Positions 11,258 through 27,105 of a DNA stretch of 38,825 nt are shown one piece after another. This stretch comes from an uncultured Clostridia bacterium. GTDB taxonomy: Bacteria; Bacillota; Clostridia; Christensenellales; Aristaeellaceae. The translations under genes and the position numbers were made by a program. Within the stretch, counting starts at the first letter, position 1, and the number at the start of each line of letters is the position of its first letter. The notes below the pieces were generated by a model. It was not told where the DNA came from. It made no database searches and saw only the letters and a list, made by a program, of their open reading frames with translations. The stretch is taken from NCBI GenBank assembly GCA_946411525.1, contig CAMKEI010000020.1:1-38825 (forward strand), read 5' to 3'.

Positions 11258-12043
11258 TCAGGTATTGCTGTAATTCTCCAGGAACTGCCGGGTTCGCTCG
11301 TGCTGCGGATTGTCGATCACGTCCGCAGCCGCGCCGTATTCGACCACGACGCCGTGATCCATAAACAGCACGTTATCCGCCACCTGACGGGCAAACTGCA
11401 TCTCATGCGTTACGATAATCATCGTAGTGTTCCGGGAAGCGAGGGAACGGATCACGCTGAGCACCTCGCCGGTCAGCTCCGGATCCAGCGCTGACGTCGG
11501 TTCGTCAAAGCAGAGGATGTCAGGATTCAGCGCCAGTGCCCGGGCGATGGCAACCCGCTGCTGCTGTCCGCCGGAAAGCTGGTGCGGATAATTATCCGCC
11601 TTGGCAGCCAGACCGACAGAATCCAGCAGCTTCTGTCCGTTCTGACGGATCTCATCGAGAATCTGCTTTTTATTGGCCTTAAAGTCCGGCCGCTCCTTCG
11701 CCAGCAGTTCACCGGCCAGGGTCACGTTCTGGAAAGCCGTGTACTGGGGGAAAAGATTGAAGGACTGGAAAACCAGACCGAAATGCAGCCGCTTTCGCCT
11801 CAGCTCCGCACTGCTGACAGCATCTTTTCTGTCACCGTCAAAAATGACTTCGCCGTTGACACTGATACGGCCGGAGTCAGGCGTCTCGAGAAAATTGAGG
11901 CAGCGCAACAGGGTCGTTTTTCCGCTGCCGGAGGAACCGATGATGGCCAGGGATCCGCCCTTTTCCAGGGAAAAGCTGATATCCTTCAGCACCTCAGTGG
12001 CGCCGAAGCTCTTGCCGAGATTGGATACTTCCAGAATTGGCAT
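11258..12043 (-). CDS. Polar amino-acid ABC transporter ATP-binding protein
   Basis: The 261-residue ATPase powers an importer of the GlnQ/HisP type. Walker A is GSSGSGKTT (about 36-44), the Q-loop is LVFQSFNLFPQ, the signature is LSGGQQQR, Walker B is ILCFDEPTSALDP, and the switch histidine is in VTHEM. It is the third gene of the operon after the binding protein and permease. Its AAGGGGGG ribosome site overlaps the permease stop codon. Substrate is a polar amino acid or cystine; nothing in the ATPase narrows it. Confidence 0.93.
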   Translation of the reverse strand: MPILEVSNLGKSFGATEVLKDISFSLEKGGSLAIIGSSGSGKTTLLRCLNFLETPDSGRISVNGEVIFDGDRKDAVSSAELRRKRLHFGLVFQSFNLFPQYTAFQNVTLAGELLAKERPDFKANKKQILDEIRQNGQKLLDSVGLAAKADNYPHQLSGGQQQRVAIARALALNPDILCFDEPTSALDPELTGEVLSVIRSLASRNTTMIIVTHEMQFARQVADNVLFMDHGVVVEYGAAADVIDNPQHERTRQFLENYSNT

Positions 12044-13744: not shown

Positions 13745-13774
13745 TTGACACTGATCCTCCGGATATTGTATCAT
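13745..13774 (+). promoter_or_regulatory. Sigma-A promoter for the exported flavin reductase
   Basis: TTGACA and TATCAT are spaced by 18 bases, about 50 bases ahead of the ATG at 13828. It points away from the ABC promoter, with the two -35 elements about 26 bases apart, so a shared regulator is possible. Confidence 0.7.
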
Positions 13775-13827
13775 GGAACTGGAAAAAAATACCTTACAAC
13801 TGAACAATACAGAACGGAGGGAAACCG

Positions 13828-15588
13828 ATGAAAAAGCTTCTTTGCCTGTTCCTGACCCTGGCTATGGTTCTGGGCTGTACCGTCGCCTTTGCCGAGGCGC
13901 AGCCGGAAGGAGCCCTGTTTACACCGGGCACTTACAGCGGTGAAGCACAGGGAATTTTTGTTCCGGTCAAAGTGATGATCAGGGTTTCGGAAAGTGAGAT
14001 CCAAACCGTGCTGATCGACGCGACCGGCGAGACGCCTGAGCTGGGGGGCGTCGCGGCCGAAAAAATGGCGATGTCCATTATGAAGGCACAGACGCCGAAC
14101 GTGGACACTGTATCCGGCGCCACCGTGACCAGCAAGGCCATCATCGCCGCGGCGACACAGGCGCTGGAAAACGCCGGCGCGGACATCGCAGTGCTGGACG
14201 CGAACCGGAAAGACACCGGGGACGCGGGTCCCAAAGCGGAAAAGACCATTGACACCGAGATCGTGATTATCGGCGCGGGCGGCGCCGGTATGACGGCCGC
14301 GATTATGCTTCAGCAGGCCGGAAAAGATTTCGTGATCCTGGAAAAAATGCCCTATGTCGGCGGCAACACCACCAAGGCTACCGGCGGTATGAATGCTTCC
14401 GAGACACATTATCAGAAGGAACAGGGCATTGAGGATTCGAATGCGCTCTTCGCCGCGGATACGATGAAGGGCGGCCACGCCCTGAACGACGCATCGCTGG
14501 TGGCCATGATGGCGAACAGCTCCGCGGGAGCGATCGACTGGCTGGACACCATCGGCGCGGAACTGCCGAAGATTTCCTTCTCCGGCGGCGCGTCCGTCAA
14601 CCGGATCCACGCGCCTGAGGACGGTTCCGGAGTCGGCGCGTACCTGGTGGACCGGTTCTCCGCGAAGCTGAACGAGCTGGGTGTGGAAGTGATGCTGGAA
14701 ACCGCGGCGACGGAGCTGATCGCCGACGCGGAAGGAAAAATCACCGGCGTTAAGGCCGAGAGTCCCGACGCGGTCTATACCATCAATGCCAAGGCGGTCA
14801 TCCTGGCCAGTGGCGGTTTCGGTGCGAACGAGGAGATGTATACCACTTACCGGCCCGACCTGAAGGGCACCGTAACAACCAACGCGCCGGGCGCGACCGG
14901 CGACGGTATCGTTATGGCCCAGAAGCTTGGCGCGGACCTTGTGGATATCGAGCAGATCCAGCTGCATCCCACCGTAGAGCAGACCACATCCATCCTGATC
15001 ACCGAGTCCGTCCGCGGAGACGGTGCGATTCTGGTCAACCAGGGCGGCATGCGGTTTACCAACGAGCTGCTGACCCGCGATGCGGTGTCCGCGGCGGAAC
15101 TGGCGCAGGAAGGCATCTACGCCTATATCATCTTTGACCAGAAACTGCGGGACGGCCTGAAGGCGATCGAGAAATACGTCAAGAGCGGCATCACCGTACA
15201 GGCGGATACGATCGAGGGCCTGGCGGAACAGCTGAGCATCGATCCGGCGACGCTGGCCAAGACGCTGGCTGACTGGAACGAAATAGTGAAAAACCAGCGC
15301 GACACCGAATTCGGCCGGACGACCGGCATGAACGAAGACCTGACCACACCGCCGTATTACGCGATCAAGATTGCTCCCGGTATCCATCACACTATGGGCG
15401 GCGTAAAGATCAACACGGCGGCGGAAGTGATCAGCACCGAAGGGAAAGCAATCCCCGGCCTGTTTGCAGCAGGTGAGGTGTGCGGAGGCGTTCACGGCGG
15501 CAACCGGCTGGGCGGAAACGCGGTGGCGGATATCGTCATCTTCGGCCGGATCGCGGCGGAGAGTGCCATGGCATATCTGGGAGAATAA
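13828..15588 (+). CDS. Exported FMN-binding, FAD-dependent reductase of the fumarate-reductase type
   Basis: The 586-residue protein has a signal peptide (about 1-22; VLGC is a possible but imperfect lipobox). An FMN-binding domain (about 30-115) carries D93-x-x-SGAT with Thr99, the motif for covalent FMN attachment by ApbE. A FAD_binding_2 domain follows from VIIGAGGAG (147-154). Compared with flavocytochrome c3 of Shewanella frigidimarina (numbering from memory), His380, Glu393, Arg396, Arg417, His520 and Arg560 line up with H365, E378, R381, R402, H504 and R544, so the fumarate-type active site is complete. It should reduce fumarate or another unsaturated carboxylate outside the cell using electrons from membrane flavoproteins. 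No ApbE or cytochrome partner is in the window. Own promoter and own strong terminator indicate a single-gene unit. Confidence 0.87.
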   Translation: MKKLLCLFLTLAMVLGCTVAFAEAQPEGALFTPGTYSGEAQGIFVPVKVMIRVSESEIQTVLIDATGETPELGGVAAEKMAMSIMKAQTPNVDTVSGATVTSKAIIAAATQALENAGADIAVLDANRKDTGDAGPKAEKTIDTEIVIIGAGGAGMTAAIMLQQAGKDFVILEKMPYVGGNTTKATGGMNASETHYQKEQGIEDSNALFAADTMKGGHALNDASLVAMMANSSAGAIDWLDTIGAELPKISFSGGASVNRIHAPEDGSGVGAYLVDRFSAKLNELGVEVMLETAATELIADAEGKITGVKAESPDAVYTINAKAVILASGGFGANEEMYTTYRPDLKGTVTTNAPGATGDGIVMAQKLGADLVDIEQIQLHPTVEQTTSILITESVRGDGAILVNQGGMRFTNELLTRDAVSAAELAQEGIYAYIIFDQKLRDGLKAIEKYVKSGITVQADTIEGLAEQLSIDPATLAKTLADWNEIVKNQRDTEFGRTTGMNEDLTTPPYYAIKIAPGIHHTMGGVKINTAAEVISTEGKAIPGLFAAGEVCGGVHGGNRLGGNAVADIVIFGRIAAESAMAYLGE

Positions 15589-15636
15589 CGCGGAAATCAT
15601 CCATACAGTATTCAGGGCGGAGGATGACTGACGGTA

Positions 15637-19479: not shown

Positions 19480-19575
19480 CATGGCAGGAACTGACGCGCC
19501 GCACGGACGGAAAACGTATACAGACAGGACGGGGATTTCTCCGGAAAACGCCTATGACCGGCGAAGGAGCAGGAT

Positions 19576-22026
19576 ATGATCTTTTTTCAGCAGTTCTACC
19601 TGGATAAAGAGAAGGACATCGCGGTCGATCTTCAGATGGAAGGGGACCGCCTGTTTTATACCATCCGGACGCCGAATCATCATTCCGGAAACCTGATTAC
19701 AAACCTGGCAAAGCTGTGCAATCTGAAGACCGGGGAGGACGACCAGGGACTGAAGGTCATCCGGGACGAGATTCCGTGCTACTATGACGGAGACAACCGG
19801 AAAATGTATATCCTGCGGCTCGGAAACACGAAAATCGCCAACATATTCCCGGACGGCAGAGTGGAAATGAAAGCGTCGATCCCCGCTATCTCCAAGACGC
19901 TTATGAGTCAGACGCGGGACTATAAACTCGGCGTGGCCAAGACGATTGTAAAAACCTATATTCTCGGCGACTGTAAATTCCGGACAGATCTGCATACGCA
20001 TATGAATGGCAATCTGCCGCCGGACGCCCTGATTGCCCTGGGCATCGTACGCCAGTTGAGATATCCCTATTACTATATCAAGAAGCTGGGACTGCGCTGC
20101 GACCTGTCCCAGACAGCCAGGCTGGAAGAACGCCGGGCCGCGGCAGAGGCGGCGCTGGGGGAGACGGGCCTGACAGGCAAACGCAGGGAACGCCGGATCG
20201 ATGACCATACGTTTATCAATTTTGCCGAGCTGATTCTCGGCAATCCGGCGGACGCGCAGTACAACATCGACCGGATCCGGAATTCCCTGACAATTCCCAA
20301 GGACGGTCAGGCGGTGTTCGCGGATCTGGAAAAGGTCTATCTGTACCGATACGTATTCACAAAAGGACTGCCGGCTGAAGATCCGTACAGCGGGATCAAC
20401 CTGGCGCTGATTCCGGACCGGGAGGTATCCGCCTACGCGGAGCAGATGCGGCGGGACCGGGAGACGGAACGCTTCGGAAGCAATACGCTGTATCAGGACC
20501 TGCTGCTGTGGATCGCCCGGGAATACCGCCGCCGGGGTATCGAATACGCGGAAATTTCAGATACGGGGCTGCTGAACCGCGAGAGCTTTGCAGGGAAACT
20601 GCGGGAGATCCATGAGATCATGCCGGCGGTGGTCCGGGAAACCGGGGTAACGCTCCGGTTCCTGGCCGGTATCCGGCGGGTTCCGCTGACGATTATCCGT
20701 GACAGGATTACACCCAACGATTATCTTGCGGACAACTTGCAGATCCTCCGGGCAATCGCCGGGGATCCGTATGTGGCCGGCAGCGACATCATCGGCGAGG
20801 AGATCAACAATATCCTGGAGCTGCGTGCGCTGATCCGGGAACTGGTGAGGATCGCCGGCGAACAGGACGGTTTTGTGATCCGGATCCACGCGGGCGAGAA
20901 CGATGCCCTGCGAGACAACGTGGCGAACAGCATCGCCTGCGTGGCAGACGCACTGGCCCCCGGGCAGAAGATGCCTCTTCTGCGGATCGGCCACGGCCTG
21001 TATACCTGTGACCTGCGCAAGCCGAAAGGGCAGAAACTGCTGGCGGATATGAAGAAATACCGGGTTACGCTCGAATTCCAGATCACTTCAAACGTGCGGC
21101 TGAATAACCTGTCCCGGCTGGACAACCATCCGCTGCGGCAGTATCTGCGCGCCGGTATCGCCTGCGTGCAGGGCACGGACGGCGGAGCGCTGTACGGGAC
21201 GGACTCCATTGACGAGGAACTCTCGCTGGAAAAACTCCTGGGCCTGAACTATGATGAACTGAGGAAAATGCGCAGGGCGGATGAGAAGATCCTGCAGGAG
21301 AGCCGGCAGGTCTTTGAACGGCGGATGACTGTCTTCAGGGAACAATGCGGCGCGGGGGATGCGGAGAAATGGTATCTTCGCCGGCTGGAAGAGACGCCGC
21401 GCATCACCCAGGATCTGTGGAAGGAATCTGGCAGGATCGACGCGGCGGAAGAACTGAAGGAACTGATCGGACCGCTGCCGGACGGGCGGTTCCCGGTGGT
21501 GATCGCCGGCGGCAGCTTCAATCACAGCAACCACCGGACAAGCGTACGCGATGAGGAAAAACAGCTGATCGACCGGCTGCTGGATACGCTGGATCCTGAA
21601 AGGGTATTCTTTGTCATCGGCCACAGCCTCGCCGGACAGGAAGGCTGGCTGGTGCAGCAAAACCAGGGAAGATTCAGGATTGTCGCGATCGTGCCGAATC
21701 GGATCAGCCGGGCGGAAAAAAACCGCCTGCTCAGGTCGGGCGTTTCGGTGAGGATTTCCATCGAAAGCTCAGGGATGGGACTGTACAAAAGCTTTGCCTA
21801 CGAGATCTTCAAACGGATGAATTCTGCCCTGCTTGTCTTTGACGGCAATGCGCCGGCGCAGAACCTTCTCCAGGAAGCGAAGAACGGGCGGTTCCGGTGC
21901 CGGATTTTTGTTAATCCGCGGTCACGCGGACTGAGCGTCAAGGCAAGAATGCTGGAAGGCTACGTGGAACCTCTGGAAACCTCCTGCGAGGCTGTCAAAA
22001 ACCTGGCTGAAAAGCCGGGAACATAA
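19576..22026 (+). CDS. Large adenosine-deaminase-like protein with C-terminal SLOG/DprA-like domain
   Basis: This 816-residue soluble protein has three parts. Residues 1-130 match nothing I recognise. About 135-610 is an adenosine/AMP-deaminase barrel: metal ligands His140 and His142 (DLHTHMNG), HAGE at 438-441, catalytic-type His473 (GHG), TSNVRL, and Asp535. The second Asp of the usual TDD motif, which contacts the purine in adenosine deaminase, is Gly536, so the substrate may differ. About 60-100 residues are inserted after the first metal motif. About 638-800 looks like a Rossmann domain of the SLOG/DprA kind: VVIAGGSF, then FFVIGHSLAGQEG, AIVPN and a terminal NSALLVFDG. SLOG domains bind nucleotides or nucleotide-derived signals. 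Ribosome site AAGGAG. It appears to be a single-gene unit. The function is unknown. A link to RADAR RdrB is possible, but no RdrA-like ATPase lies nearby. Confidence 0.7.
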   Translation: MIFFQQFYLDKEKDIAVDLQMEGDRLFYTIRTPNHHSGNLITNLAKLCNLKTGEDDQGLKVIRDEIPCYYDGDNRKMYILRLGNTKIANIFPDGRVEMKASIPAISKTLMSQTRDYKLGVAKTIVKTYILGDCKFRTDLHTHMNGNLPPDALIALGIVRQLRYPYYYIKKLGLRCDLSQTARLEERRAAAEAALGETGLTGKRRERRIDDHTFINFAELILGNPADAQYNIDRIRNSLTIPKDGQAVFADLEKVYLYRYVFTKGLPAEDPYSGINLALIPDREVSAYAEQMRRDRETERFGSNTLYQDLLLWIAREYRRRGIEYAEISDTGLLNRESFAGKLREIHEIMPAVVRETGVTLRFLAGIRRVPLTIIRDRITPNDYLADNLQILRAIAGDPYVAGSDIIGEEINNILELRALIRELVRIAGEQDGFVIRIHAGENDALRDNVANSIACVADALAPGQKMPLLRIGHGLYTCDLRKPKGQKLLADMKKYRVTLEFQITSNVRLNNLSRLDNHPLRQYLRAGIACVQGTDGGALYGTDSIDEELSLEKLLGLNYDELRKMRRADEKILQESRQVFERRMTVFREQCGAGDAEKWYLRRLEETPRITQDLWKESGRIDAAEELKELIGPLPDGRFPVVIAGGSFNHSNHRTSVRDEEKQLIDRLLDTLDPERVFFVIGHSLAGQEGWLVQQNQGRFRIVAIVPNRISRAEKNRLLRSGVSVRISIESSGMGLYKSFAYEIFKRMNSALLVFDGNAPAQNLLQEAKNGRFRCRIFVNPRSRGLSVKARMLEGYVEPLETSCEAVKNLAEKPGT

Positions 22027-23342: not shown

Positions 23343-24917
23343 ATGTACAGTTGTCCCGGATGCGGATCCCAGATGCTGTTTGATATTGCAGGCCAGCAAT
23401 TGAAGTGCGGCCGGTGCGACCGGACCATGAGCATTGGGGAAGCGGACGAAAAAGAAGCGCGGCAGGCCGGAAGCAGCTTTGCCGTGGACGTGCTGACGTG
23501 CCCGACCTGCGGCGCGGAAATCCGCGCGGTCAATACGGCCGCTGCGTCCTTCTGCAGCTACTGCGGCGCCTCTGTCATGCTGGAGAAACAGGAAGGCGCA
23601 GAGTTTGTGCCACCGGAGACCGTGATTCCGTTCCAGATTACCCGGGAGCAGTGCTTTGACAAGTTCAGGGATATGCTGAAGGGCAGCTTCTGCGCAGACC
23701 ACCGGCTGAAAAAGAACATTACCGCGGACAGCTTCCGCGGGATTTATGTGCCTTATCATACGTACAGCGGTTCCGTGGAAGGCAGTGCAACCGTCGAGGG
23801 AACGGAAACCAAGGGCGACACAACATATTACTACAAGACCCGGGTTCATCTGGACCATCACTATACCGGGATCATGCATGACGCTTCCCGGGAGATGCCG
23901 GACAATATTTCCGAAGCCATTTCGATTTCCAAAGACGCCCGGTATCTGGTCCGGCCGTTTTCTCCCGCCTACCTGAGCGGCTTCTATGCGGATGTGGCGG
24001 ATACCGATCCGGATTACTATATTCCTTACGCCCGGTCGGAAACGATCCGGAAAGGCCTGGAAGATACGCTGCCGGCCCTGGAGAACGATTCCTGCAGCTA
24101 TTCCACATCCGCGGCGGAGAAAGCGCTGATGCCCAAGGCCAGGGCTGAATATACCGGCGATACCATGATCCCGGTCTGGTTCATGTCCATGAAGAGCGGG
24201 AAACGGGTGCTCTATGCCGTACAGAACGCTGTAACAGGGGAAATGTGGGCGGATATCCCGATGGATATTTCCCGGTTTGCACTGGTGGCGCTGGCTATCG
24301 CGGCTGTGCTCTTCCTTATATTCAACAGCTTCCTGACGCTTCGCCCGGAGATGGTGATGATCGCGGCTATGCTGCTGGCCATTTTTGCCCAGTACGCCGT
24401 AAACGGCAGGCGCACAAAGATGGGGGAGAAAGAACTGGCAGAGGCGGTGATCCGGGGAGAAACCGTGGACGTCAGTGACCGGATATCAAAAATGAAAAAG
24501 CTGAAGGCGAGAGTAAACCGGCAGAAAAACGGCGGGATCTTCCGTTATCTCGGAGCGCTGGGTACCGGCATTGCCTCGGTCATCGCGCTGAATGCTCTTT
24601 CCAGCGTGGACAATATTATGTATTTCCGGTACGGAGCGCTGATCCTGACTGCGGTCATGGCGGCGCTGCTTATTCCCTGGGGCAAACGGTCAAAACTTCC
24701 CGCCGGCTGCCTGGTTACGTTCATCGCGATGGTCGCGGGGACCGCGATCATGCTTCTGGATCCGTTCCACAGCGCGGACGGGCCTGTATACATTATCACG
24801 CTGACGATCATGGCCGGCGTGGTTTGGGAGAGTCTGACCCTGCTGAGACTATACAACAAATCCTGCTCCAACAGCCTGCCTCAGTTTGAATCCCATCAGG
24901 GAGGTGAACTGCTGTGA
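23343..24917 (+). CDS. Zinc-ribbon membrane protein, partner of TPM protein
   Basis: This 524-residue protein opens with two zinc ribbons (Cys4, 7, 22, 25 and Cys53, 56, 71, 74). A soluble region of about 200 residues follows, with YVPYHTYSG and IPVWFMSMKSGKRVLYAVQN, as in uncharacterised TFIIB-type zinc-ribbon membrane proteins of Firmicutes. Six hydrophobic segments complete the C-terminal half, starting near residue 313. The function is unknown. The ribosome site AAGGAGG is strong. The stop overlaps the GTG start of the TPM gene by the four bases GTGA, so the two proteins are probably made together and may form a membrane complex. Confidence 0.75.
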   Translation: MYSCPGCGSQMLFDIAGQQLKCGRCDRTMSIGEADEKEARQAGSSFAVDVLTCPTCGAEIRAVNTAAASFCSYCGASVMLEKQEGAEFVPPETVIPFQITREQCFDKFRDMLKGSFCADHRLKKNITADSFRGIYVPYHTYSGSVEGSATVEGTETKGDTTYYYKTRVHLDHHYTGIMHDASREMPDNISEAISISKDARYLVRPFSPAYLSGFYADVADTDPDYYIPYARSETIRKGLEDTLPALENDSCSYSTSAAEKALMPKARAEYTGDTMIPVWFMSMKSGKRVLYAVQNAVTGEMWADIPMDISRFALVALAIAAVLFLIFNSFLTLRPEMVMIAAMLLAIFAQYAVNGRRTKMGEKELAEAVIRGETVDVSDRISKMKKLKARVNRQKNGGIFRYLGALGTGIASVIALNALSSVDNIMYFRYGALILTAVMAALLIPWGKRSKLPAGCLVTFIAMVAGTAIMLLDPFHSADGPVYIITLTIMAGVVWESLTLLRLYNKSCSNSLPQFESHQGGELL

Positions 24918-25708
24918 AAAAACTCCTGGCTTTCCTTCTGATCCTGACGCTGATGATCCCCGGACTTGCCGCGGCGGAGGCAAAAACCCGGCAGAATGAG
25001 GAAACGGGTTTCCGCGCCGTGATCGAAGACGGCGCCGGGCTGCTGGATGCCGCAGAATATGAGGGCGTCTTCGCCTCGATGATGCCGATTACGGACACCT
25101 GCAACGCCGGTTTTTATACTTACGGCGGAGAATCAAGGGAATATGTGATTACAAAGGCGCAGAACTGGGCGGCAGAAACGTTCGGGAACAGCTGCACGCT
25201 GTTTATTATCGATATGGCCACGCGCCAGCTGGCGGTCTGGTCCAGTGACGACATGCTGAAGACGCTGACGCAGGCGAAGAGCTATACCATTACCGACAAC
25301 GTCTATTCCTATGCATCCCGGGGCGATTACGCGGGCTGCGCCGAGAGCGCTTTCAACCAGATGTACAAGGCGCTGAAAGGCGAAAAACTCTCAGGTGCCA
25401 TGCGCCTGATCAGCAACGGGCTCCTGGCCCTTCTGGCGGCAATCCTGCTGGCTTATCTATTTATCTCCGCCCGGATGGAGCAGGAAGTGAAGGTGTCCCT
25501 GCCTGAGATCGCGACGGCCACAATGGGAGCCGGCGCGGTGATTGCCGCAAAGACGCTGGTCCGGAAAGTGCGTCACACCTCTTCTTCAGGCGGCGGGTCC
25601 CACGGCGGATTCGGCGGCGGAGGCGGATTCGGCGGCGGCGGCGGAGGCGGATTCGGCGGCGGCGGCGGAGGCGGATTCGGCGGAGGCGGCGGAAGCCACG
25701 GGTTCTGA
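24914..25708 (+). CDS. TPM-domain protein with glycine-rich tail
   Basis: The 264-residue protein has a signal peptide (MKKLLAFLLILTLMIPGLAAA), a TPM domain of about 120 residues (from AVIEDGAGLLDAAEYE), one membrane helix near residues 166-186, and a tail of glycine with regular Phe and final His-Gly-Phe. The TPM fold is known from chloroplast TLP18.3 and bacterial membrane proteins, with roles proposed in repair or quality control of membrane complexes. The start is GTG and overlaps the stop of the zinc-ribbon gene. Family tails are often Gly-rich, but this one is encoded by a clean DNA tandem repeat and may vary in length between strains. Confidence 0.83.
   Translation: MKKLLAFLLILTLMIPGLAAAEAKTRQNEETGFRAVIEDGAGLLDAAEYEGVFASMMPITDTCNAGFYTYGGESREYVITKAQNWAAETFGNSCTLFIIDMATRQLAVWSSDDMLKTLTQAKSYTITDNVYSYASRGDYAGCAESAFNQMYKALKGEKLSGAMRLISNGLLALLAAILLAYLFISARMEQEVKVSLPEIATATMGAGAVIAAKTLVRKVRHTSSSGGGSHGGFGGGGGFGGGGGGGFGGGGGGGFGGGGGSHGF
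25604..25692 (+). repeat. In-frame GC-rich tandem repeat coding the Gly-Phe tail
   Basis: GGATTC recurs at 25607, 25625, 25649 and 25673. The spacings are 18, 24 and 24 bases, filled with GGCGGC and GGCGGA triplets. Every spacing is a multiple of three, so copy-number change keeps the frame. Confidence 0.85.
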
Positions 25709-25752: not shown

Positions 25753-27105
25753 ATGACAGCTGAACTGACGCGGAGCGCAATGACAAGAAAAGCGCTGTCT
25801 GTTGCCTGGCCAGCAATGGCAGAAAGCTTTTTTGTCGCGCTCGCGGGCATGATAGACACAATGATGGTGTCCGCCCTGGGCAGCTATGCCGTGGCAGCGG
25901 TCGGTCTGACCAATCAGCCGAAGTTTATCGGGCTGACGATTTTTTTCGGCATCAACGTGGCGGTCTCAGCCCTCATCGCAAGGCGGAAGGGGGAACAGCG
26001 CCAGGACACTGCCAATCAGATCCTGCTGACGGCGATTATCCTGGCGTGCATTGCCTGCGTGGCTGTGACGGTGCTGTTTGTGGTTTTTGCGCCGTGGATG
26101 ATGGAACTGGCCGGCAGCAATGCGGATACGCATGAGGCTGCCGTTATCTATTTCCAGATTATCATGGGCGGCACGTTCTTTAACGTGATTACGATGGTCA
26201 TCAATTCCGCACAGCGGGGCAGCGGCAATACCAAGCTGTCCATGACCACCAACCTGACCAGCAGCGTCGTCAACATCATCTTCAATTATCTGCTGATCGA
26301 GGGACATTTCGGCTTCCCGCGGTGGGGGATCCGCGGCGCGGCGATCGCCACGGTACTTGGCACGGTAGTGGCAGCCGCCATGGCAGTATCATCCCTGTTC
26401 CGGCGCGGCAGCTATGTGCGCATCCCGCTGATGAAACGGCTGAAGCTCCGATATTCACGCGAGAGCGCGAGATCCATCTGGCATCTTGCGGTGAACACCT
26501 CGTTCGAGAATATCGCTGCGCGGATCGGGTTCCTGGCGACGGCGATGATCGCCGCGAGGCTGGGAACGGATGAATTTGCCGCGCATAATATCGGTATGAG
26601 CATCCTCGGACTCGGCTTTTCCTTTGCCGACGGCATGCAGGTGGCGGCGGTGGCACTGGCCGGGGAGGCGCTTGGCGCAGGGCAGAAGCAGACCGCAAAA
26701 CGTTACGGAAGCATCTGCCAGCGGATCGGCCTGCTGATCTCCTTCATCCTTGCGCTGCTCCTGTTCTTCGGCGGACGCTGGTTCTATGGACTGTACTTCA
26801 CGGAACCACATATCCTGGAGATGGGTGAAGTGATCTGCCGGTACCTGATTGTTATCGTGCTGCTGCAGATCAGCCAGATCATCTTTACCGGCTGCCTGCG
26901 TGCGGCGGGGGACGTCCGGTATGTTCTTTTTGCCGCGATGGTCTCTATCGCCGGCATCCGTACGCTGAGCACGCTTCTGATGGTCAACGTTCTGGGCTGG
27001 GGGCTGCACGGCGTCTGGCTGGGCGTCCTGGCGGACCAGCTGTCCCGGTTTATCATGGTATCCCTTCGCTTCAGGCAGGGGAAATGGGTGGACCTGAAGA
27101 TTTAG
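25753..27105 (+). CDS. MATE-family efflux transporter
   Basis: The 450-residue membrane protein has twelve hydrophobic segments in two similar halves, starting ALSVAWPAMAESFFVALAGMIDTMMVSALG, a clear MATE (NorM/DinF-like) first helix pair. The second half repeats the pattern from LAVNTSFENIAARIGF. Such proteins export cationic compounds, drugs or metabolites with sodium or proton gradients; the substrate is unknown. Length is normal and all helices seem intact. Ribosome site AAGGGAAGAG. The remains of a second MATE gene follow 19 bases downstream. Confidence 0.92.
   Translation: MTAELTRSAMTRKALSVAWPAMAESFFVALAGMIDTMMVSALGSYAVAAVGLTNQPKFIGLTIFFGINVAVSALIARRKGEQRQDTANQILLTAIILACIACVAVTVLFVVFAPWMMELAGSNADTHEAAVIYFQIIMGGTFFNVITMVINSAQRGSGNTKLSMTTNLTSSVVNIIFNYLLIEGHFGFPRWGIRGAAIATVLGTVVAAAMAVSSLFRRGSYVRIPLMKRLKLRYSRESARSIWHLAVNTSFENIAARIGFLATAMIAARLGTDEFAAHNIGMSILGLGFSFADGMQVAAVALAGEALGAGQKQTAKRYGSICQRIGLLISFILALLLFFGGRWFYGLYFTEPHILEMGEVICRYLIVIVLLQISQIIFTGCLRAAGDVRYVLFAAMVSIAGIRTLSTLLMVNVLGWGLHGVWLGVLADQLSRFIMVSLRFRQGKWVDLKI

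Follow-up and report, generated by a model that had tools for sequence, protein, structure and literature searches.

The window, a 38,825-nucleotide stretch of DNA from an uncultured Clostridia bacterium, carries a gene for an 816-residue protein in which an adenosine deaminase (ADA) barrel is flanked by an N-terminal domain of no known family and a predicted SLOG-like Rossmann domain. The barrel has a complete ADA zinc and catalytic site, in which the two positions that adapt ADA to free adenosine both carry other residues. We tentatively propose that the protein may well be a one-chain, ligand-gated deaminase of adenine nucleotides; its substrate, ligand, gating and role are what we infer. 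The original prediction, made from the bases, is thus partly supported as a whole, and its self-contained sensor-effector is plausible.

Overall architecture

The reading frame at 19576–22026 (+) is present as originally predicted, with 816 codons that start at ATG and end in a stop. The bases alone suggest AAGGAG at 19564–19569 (+), six bases 5′ of the start, as a likely ribosome-binding site. The gene is matched in 31 of 61 relatives, all 31 in the window's genus, and 26 of these matches, own genome included, are near full length and stop-free, the other 25 at 54–89% identity. The remaining matches comprise one that is split in two (G024), a short fragment each in G004 and G030, and two in frames of plain-ADA size, 337 aa in G021 and 341 aa in G028, the G021 frame being a plain ADA. 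The frame is a real gene, far beyond chance.

The protein consists of three parts, an N-terminal domain (residues ~1–134), an ADA barrel (~135–612) and a C-terminal Rossmann domain, and the full-length AlphaFold model has a mean pLDDT of 87.4 and a pTM of 0.81. A_deaminase is the sole Pfam family on the protein, and its sole PADLOC match, to CARF_ADA (E 6.6e-6), covers residues 312–542 and hence the barrel only. The fold search and the model bear out the original prediction in its layout of three parts and in its SLOG/DprA-like call.

The ADA barrel and its active site

The ADA barrel spans residues 135–612 (19978–21411, +), as placed by Pfam, the model and Foldseek. The Pfam match, A_deaminase (PF00962), extends over residues 315–567 at E 4.7e-13 and 49.3 bits against a curated cut-off of 27. 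When the full-length model is compared by Foldseek, ADAs rank first (E 1.4e-9), the highest identity among the best 50 matches listed (22%) belongs to a chain of Cad1 (9ofd_K), and the matches listed include ADA homologues that act on adenine, AMP and N6-methyl-AMP. Profile searches of the PDB with the whole family give ADA-type chains only among the matches listed, with neither RdrB nor Cad1, and the protein lies below every cut-off of the NCBIfam ADA models among the matches listed (aden_deam, 42.0 against 216.55 bits).

Alignment resolves the active site into a series of motifs. H140-T-H142-M-N144 (19993–20007, +) contains the zinc HxH and places N144 where mouse ADA has D19, in the numbering given in the available text of PMC12669630. 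A helical stretch of approximate limits (~172–305; 20089–20490, +; DSSP and alignment) leads from the HxH to the rest of the barrel and is longer than in plain ADA. H438-A-G-E441 (20887–20898, +) holds a zinc His and the catalytic Glu, H473 (20992–20994, +) is the catalytic His, and D535-G536 (21178–21183, +) is the zinc Asp followed by a Gly at the place of mouse ADA D296. The zinc ligands H140, H142, H438 and D535 and the catalytic E441 and H473 are found in 99/99 family rows and in both distant rows. The D19 place is occupied by Asn144 in 99/99 family rows and by Ala in both distant rows, and the D296 place by Gly536 in all 99 and in both distant rows. A TDD or HxHxD motif occurs in 0 of the 101 sequences, and in a canonical ADA of the same genus the corresponding columns hold D and TDD.

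The 99 rows are the window, 80 loci from the scan of named genomes and 18 fetched regions, with near-identical rows kept; five of them (L052, L061, L062, L098 and L112) are affected by a contig end, an N or a stop overrun and were cut at the first stop, owing to which C-terminal columns count 97–98. The alignment columns are fixed by three ADA-like proteins, with Asp and TDD in L126, Asp and TDN in L033, and Thr and TDD in the GNAT-fused L131. The last of these lies on a contig (C24) of the window's own genome at L131:580–1968 (+) and has 462 residues, with an N-terminus that by eye is acetyltransferase-like and a second ADA-type barrel in which TDD is present and Thr takes the D19 place.

The replacement of two substrate-contact residues might point to a deaminase that has lost its activity and persists as a nucleotide-binding regulator, but every one of the 99 rows retains the six residues of the zinc and catalytic site, which makes such a regulator extremely improbable.

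The C-terminal domain

The SLOG-like Rossmann domain occupies residues ~636–800 (21481–21975, +), as judged from the model, Foldseek and a motif count. Folded alone, residues 629–816 reach a pLDDT of 91.5, and a Foldseek search with this model is led by a Moco carrier protein (E 2.4e-4), the TRPM8 channel (6.3e-4) and YvdD (7.5e-4), followed by DprA, the E. coli protein ShosA, TRPM4 and LOG with AMP. We take these proteins together to be of the SLOG fold. Single matches are modest (TM ~0.6, six at E ≤ 0.001), and from rank 24 on unrelated proteins, cystathionine beta-synthase among them, join a list that the SLOG fold dominates. The models thus support a SLOG Rossmann fold; a C-terminal part of some other fold, which would have spoken against the original prediction, is not what heads the search. 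Sequence comparison of the C-terminal profile with the PDB gives 0 chains at E 10. LSDAT_prok, the TRPM-type SLOG family (PF18171), has no match in the window's clade, and a search of 299 genomes with it finds 19 that match, the window's genome not among them.

SLOG domains include enzymes as well as sensors, according to the accessible part of PMC9503650. The presence of LOG and LOG–AMP structures among the C-terminal Foldseek matches would suit a chain of two enzymes, in which a LOG-like N-glycosidase is joined to the deaminase. The motif PGGxGTxxE, which we take to be the catalytic motif of LOG phosphoribohydrolases, is however present in 0 of 101 sequences; a sensor is therefore likelier than a LOG-type enzyme, and we regard the two-enzyme chain as very unlikely.

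The N-terminal domain and a distant clade

The N-terminal domain (residues 1–134; 19576–19977, +) is mostly beta by DSSP on the model and belongs to no known family, with zero matches of residues 1–138/139 in Pfam, NCBIfam and PADLOC. A distant homologue, L032, has 783 aa in the same layout at 26% identity in a four-row alignment. Its C-terminus has a weak LSDAT_prok match (E 7.6e-4, 19.2 bits against a cut-off of 25.4) and aligns with the C-terminal profile of the family at a probability of 93.5. The N-terminal domains of the family and L032 align weakly, scoring 30.0 against at most 16.0 for 30 column shuffles, with a probability of only 52.8. The three-domain layout is kept across genera.

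Comparison with known systems

The protein resembles Cad1 (CARF-ADA), an effector of type III CRISPR, in having an ADA barrel and a Rossmann-type sensor in one chain, and CARF_ADA is its closest PADLOC model. The same two adenosine-fitting positions are altered in both, as far as the available text of PMC12669630 describes Cad1, with Gly and Asn at the two places there and Asn and Gly here. In contrast to Cad1, where the CARF domain is N-terminal, a SLOG-like domain lies at the C-terminus and a new domain at the N-terminus, and the gene belongs to the core of its lineage. Cas effectors are absent from the 19 window proteins and from the best 25 of 60 PADLOC families among the neighbours of the homologues. 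Membership of Cad1 itself is not supported, since the protein has no CARF domain.

In the portion of PMC12669630 available, TaqCad1, with Gly and Asn at the D19 and D296 places, does not deaminate adenosine and converts ATP to ITP when cA4 or cA6 is bound; its N549D and double variants, in which Asp is restored, do not act on ATP, and mouse ADA is severely impaired when Asn takes the place of D296. From these variants and the mouse defect, G536 could mean a weak or a very different activity, and the residue parallel with Cad1 is suggestive only.

The accessible part of PMC9994260 presents RdrB of the RADAR system as an ATP/dATP deaminase that averages ~900 residues; its N-terminus is extended, its core carries a second insertion, and a third insertion follows the last catalytic His. 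Compared by that description, the two are alike in outline: both are large ADAs extended at the N-terminus, and in both a long stretch separates HxH from HxxE, H152, H154, H498, E501 and H530 of RdrB corresponding to H140, H142, H438, E441 and H473 here. The third insertion of RdrB has no counterpart, as only 62 residues separate H473 from D535, and the same part of PMC9994260, unlike our model, reports no SLOG domain. The PADLOC model for RdrB gives no match even at E 10. RdrA is likewise unmatched by PADLOC among the 19 window proteins and in the best 25 of 60 families of 117 neighbours of 20 homologues, and RADAR membership is not supported, no RdrA having been seen. The prediction that no ATPase partner lies nearby holds for RdrA within this scope, the window containing an ABC-transporter ATPase at 11261–12043.

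From canonical adenosine deaminase, with which the protein shares the barrel, the zinc ligands and the catalytic Glu and His, it differs in the replaced D19 and D296 equivalents and in scores far below the NCBIfam ADA cut-offs. With the SLOG superfamily (the LSDAT_prok/TRPM type, LOG, DprA and Moco carrier) it shares the fold, and the distant homologue its weak LSDAT_prok match, but the window's clade has no family-level sequence match and no LOG motif. A sensor-fused ADA is of a known kind, exemplified by Cad1. The literature searched describes no ADA with a SLOG domain and this N-terminal domain, most subscription papers and the main SLOG survey lying outside its reach.

A one-chain, ligand-gated deaminase could work as follows. 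The resting enzyme would probably be oligomeric, with contacts made by the N-terminal domain and the helical stretch. A nucleotide-type signal may bind the SLOG domain and switch the barrel, by analogy with CARF in Cad1. The barrel, having lost its fit to free adenosine, would then deaminate an adenine nucleotide, a phosphorylated or otherwise larger adenine compound of which ATP or dATP is the most likely. Its likely role would be to control the pool of adenine nucleotides when the cell meets some stress and, less likely, to act as a fixed abortive-infection device. We advance with considerable doubt a more specific proposal, that an immunity-type ATP/dATP deaminase has become a core, vertically inherited gene of rumen and gut Clostridia, in which a TRPM-like SLOG sensor within the chain reads an NAD-derived or alarmone-type nucleotide, so that the protein would be a self-contained alarm of the nucleotide pool requiring no partner gene. 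ATP deamination is known from the defence systems Cad1 and RADAR, which depend on a CRISPR signal or on a second protein; if the proposal is true, a one-gene core version would put this chemistry into normal physiology, or would mean that an effector which arrests growth can become a fixed part of the core gene set. With sensor and enzyme in one chain, the question of the ligand is directly testable.

Distribution and inheritance

The gene is carried by gut and rumen bacteria. Within the window's genus, it is present in 9 of the 10 genomes that are at least 90% complete, the exception being G012. Presence in the sampled class is sparse (13/391 genomes and 6/223 genera match, the 13 including one plain ADA-like protein, L033, and one member of the distant clade), as it is in the sampled phylum (2/398 at E 1e-20, own genome included). 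Genus g56 has the gene in 31/41 genomes and in 21/22 good ones; genus g124, where it is less universal, in 20/39 and 13/21. The distant clade is patchy within its own genus, at 3/41 genomes and 2/32 good genomes. A scan of named genomes confirmed at least 563 pattern stretches as relatives, a count from two patterns in which one gene can yield two stretches. The 80 loci kept come from uncultured Clostridia/Clostridiales, Oscillospiraceae, Ruminococcaceae and Lachnospiraceae, many from ruminants, and a few titles in the scan name Blautia, Solobacterium or Christensenella. Several rows of the query alignment used for the named, viral, phylum, g56 and g124 searches lack some N-terminal residues. 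Among viral contigs 22 pattern stretches were found and 0 confirmed as family; the phage collection searched contains no family member, the plasmid collection yields a single record, annotated as plain ADA and aligned over 19% of the query, and the distant homologue has zero matches in phages and plasmids.

Within the window's genus the gene is inherited vertically, following the divergence of a core gene. Its distances track those of the window's NFACT gene (Spearman 0.70, Pearson 0.91; 5 of 5000 permutations as high) across the 12 genomes from which both genes were fetched at full length, G023 (partial marker) being excluded along with G007, G017 and G018, where both genes match but only one had been retrieved, and the mean distances in these 12 are equal, 0.227 for the protein and 0.223 for NFACT. 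A mobile-defence pattern, patchy, horizontal and set in defence islands, is not what we observe, yet g124 stands at 13/21 and the distant clade has a patchy distribution. A gene that is nearly universal and descends vertically speaks for physiology rather than for mobile defence, and the defence flavour of the original prediction is weakened by near-universality in g56, by vertical descent in the window's genus and by the lack of an island.

A single-copy, vertical, lineage-core gene that diverges as a core gene does would also suit ordinary purine metabolism, in which the protein would deaminate nucleosides or bases with an unusual specificity and the SLOG domain would be structural or a simple allosteric brake; the Foldseek-listed homologues that act on adenine, AMP and N6-methyl-AMP are in keeping with it. 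We nevertheless consider this explanation rather doubtful, as both adenosine-fitting residues are replaced in 99/99 rows and another A_deaminase match, a second one or one outside the family, exists in at least 8 of 25 same-genus genomes (G000, G002, G004, G008, G009, G013, G015 and G021), so that the gene is not simply a stand-in for ADA.

Gene neighbourhood

In the window the gene is flanked on one side by indolepyruvate oxidoreductase and PaaK-like genes and on the other by a YtvI-like gene. Conserved neighbours are absent from 20 hand-picked regions, the commonest cluster occurring in 6. Among the best 25 of 139 Pfam families of the 117 neighbours within three genes, HTH_3 (6), HTH_19 (5), MatE (4) and PDZ (4) lead and no purine-salvage family does, a further point against ordinary purine metabolism. 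Homologues that always sit in plain purine-salvage operons, which would have told against the original prediction, are not seen in these regions.

PADLOC matches of the neighbours (best 25 of 60 families, E 1e-5) are led by HTH_VI, several RmrA models and PDC-M69A with 5 members each; the same 25 include capH (3), mad3, mad8, AriA and dCTPase (2 each), and single matches to AbiLi, RT-protease and a CAS-associated WYL regulator. These matches, with gene sets unchecked, do not make a conserved defence context, yet they are not nothing. Ten further window proteins give no PADLOC match at 1e-4.

A fixed anti-phage device, a one-gene functional relative of Cad1 and RADAR that deaminates ATP on infection, would be in line with CARF_ADA as the closest PADLOC model of the barrel, with the patchiness of the distant clade (2/32 good genomes) and with the use of SLOG sensors by Thoeris, as described in the available part of PMC12948488. 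We judge it unlikely, because 21/22 good g56 genomes have the gene and distances follow the core gene, phages and viral contigs give no match and plasmids only a plain ADA, the best 25 of 60 PADLOC families include no conserved defence neighbour, and a TIR protein is not obligate. A Thoeris-like TIR partner as the obligate maker of the signal is rejected because 4/22 good g56 genomes (G834, G407, G859 and G861) carry the gene without a TIR_2 match, as do two near-complete genomes of the window's genus, G002 and G022.

At L077:4845–7835 (−), directly upstream of the gene and divergent from it, a 997-aa frame has a TIR_2 match, the rest of this protein being by eye transmembrane and propeller-like; tblastn with it finds no other match in 101 records, which are the window and 100 loci. 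Many TIR_2 matches in g56 and g1 genomes fall in open frames of ~1000–1080 aa, often several per genome, and these frames resemble a large paralogous family.

The window encodes a MATE-type transporter at 25753–27105, a few genes downstream of the gene, and a cluster of 448–466-aa neighbours, probably also of the MATE family, is downstream in 6/20 regions (L132, L133, L134, L136, L142 and L151); this recurrence may be due to chance, as MATE genes are common. Elsewhere in the window, two long antisense frames overlap at 13771–15600 (−) and 13828–15588 (+), the former, of 609 aa, matching neither Pfam nor PADLOC. Downstream of the gene, at 23343–25708, a zinc-ribbon protein adjoins a TPM-domain protein, and related pairs occur in a few of the nearest loci.
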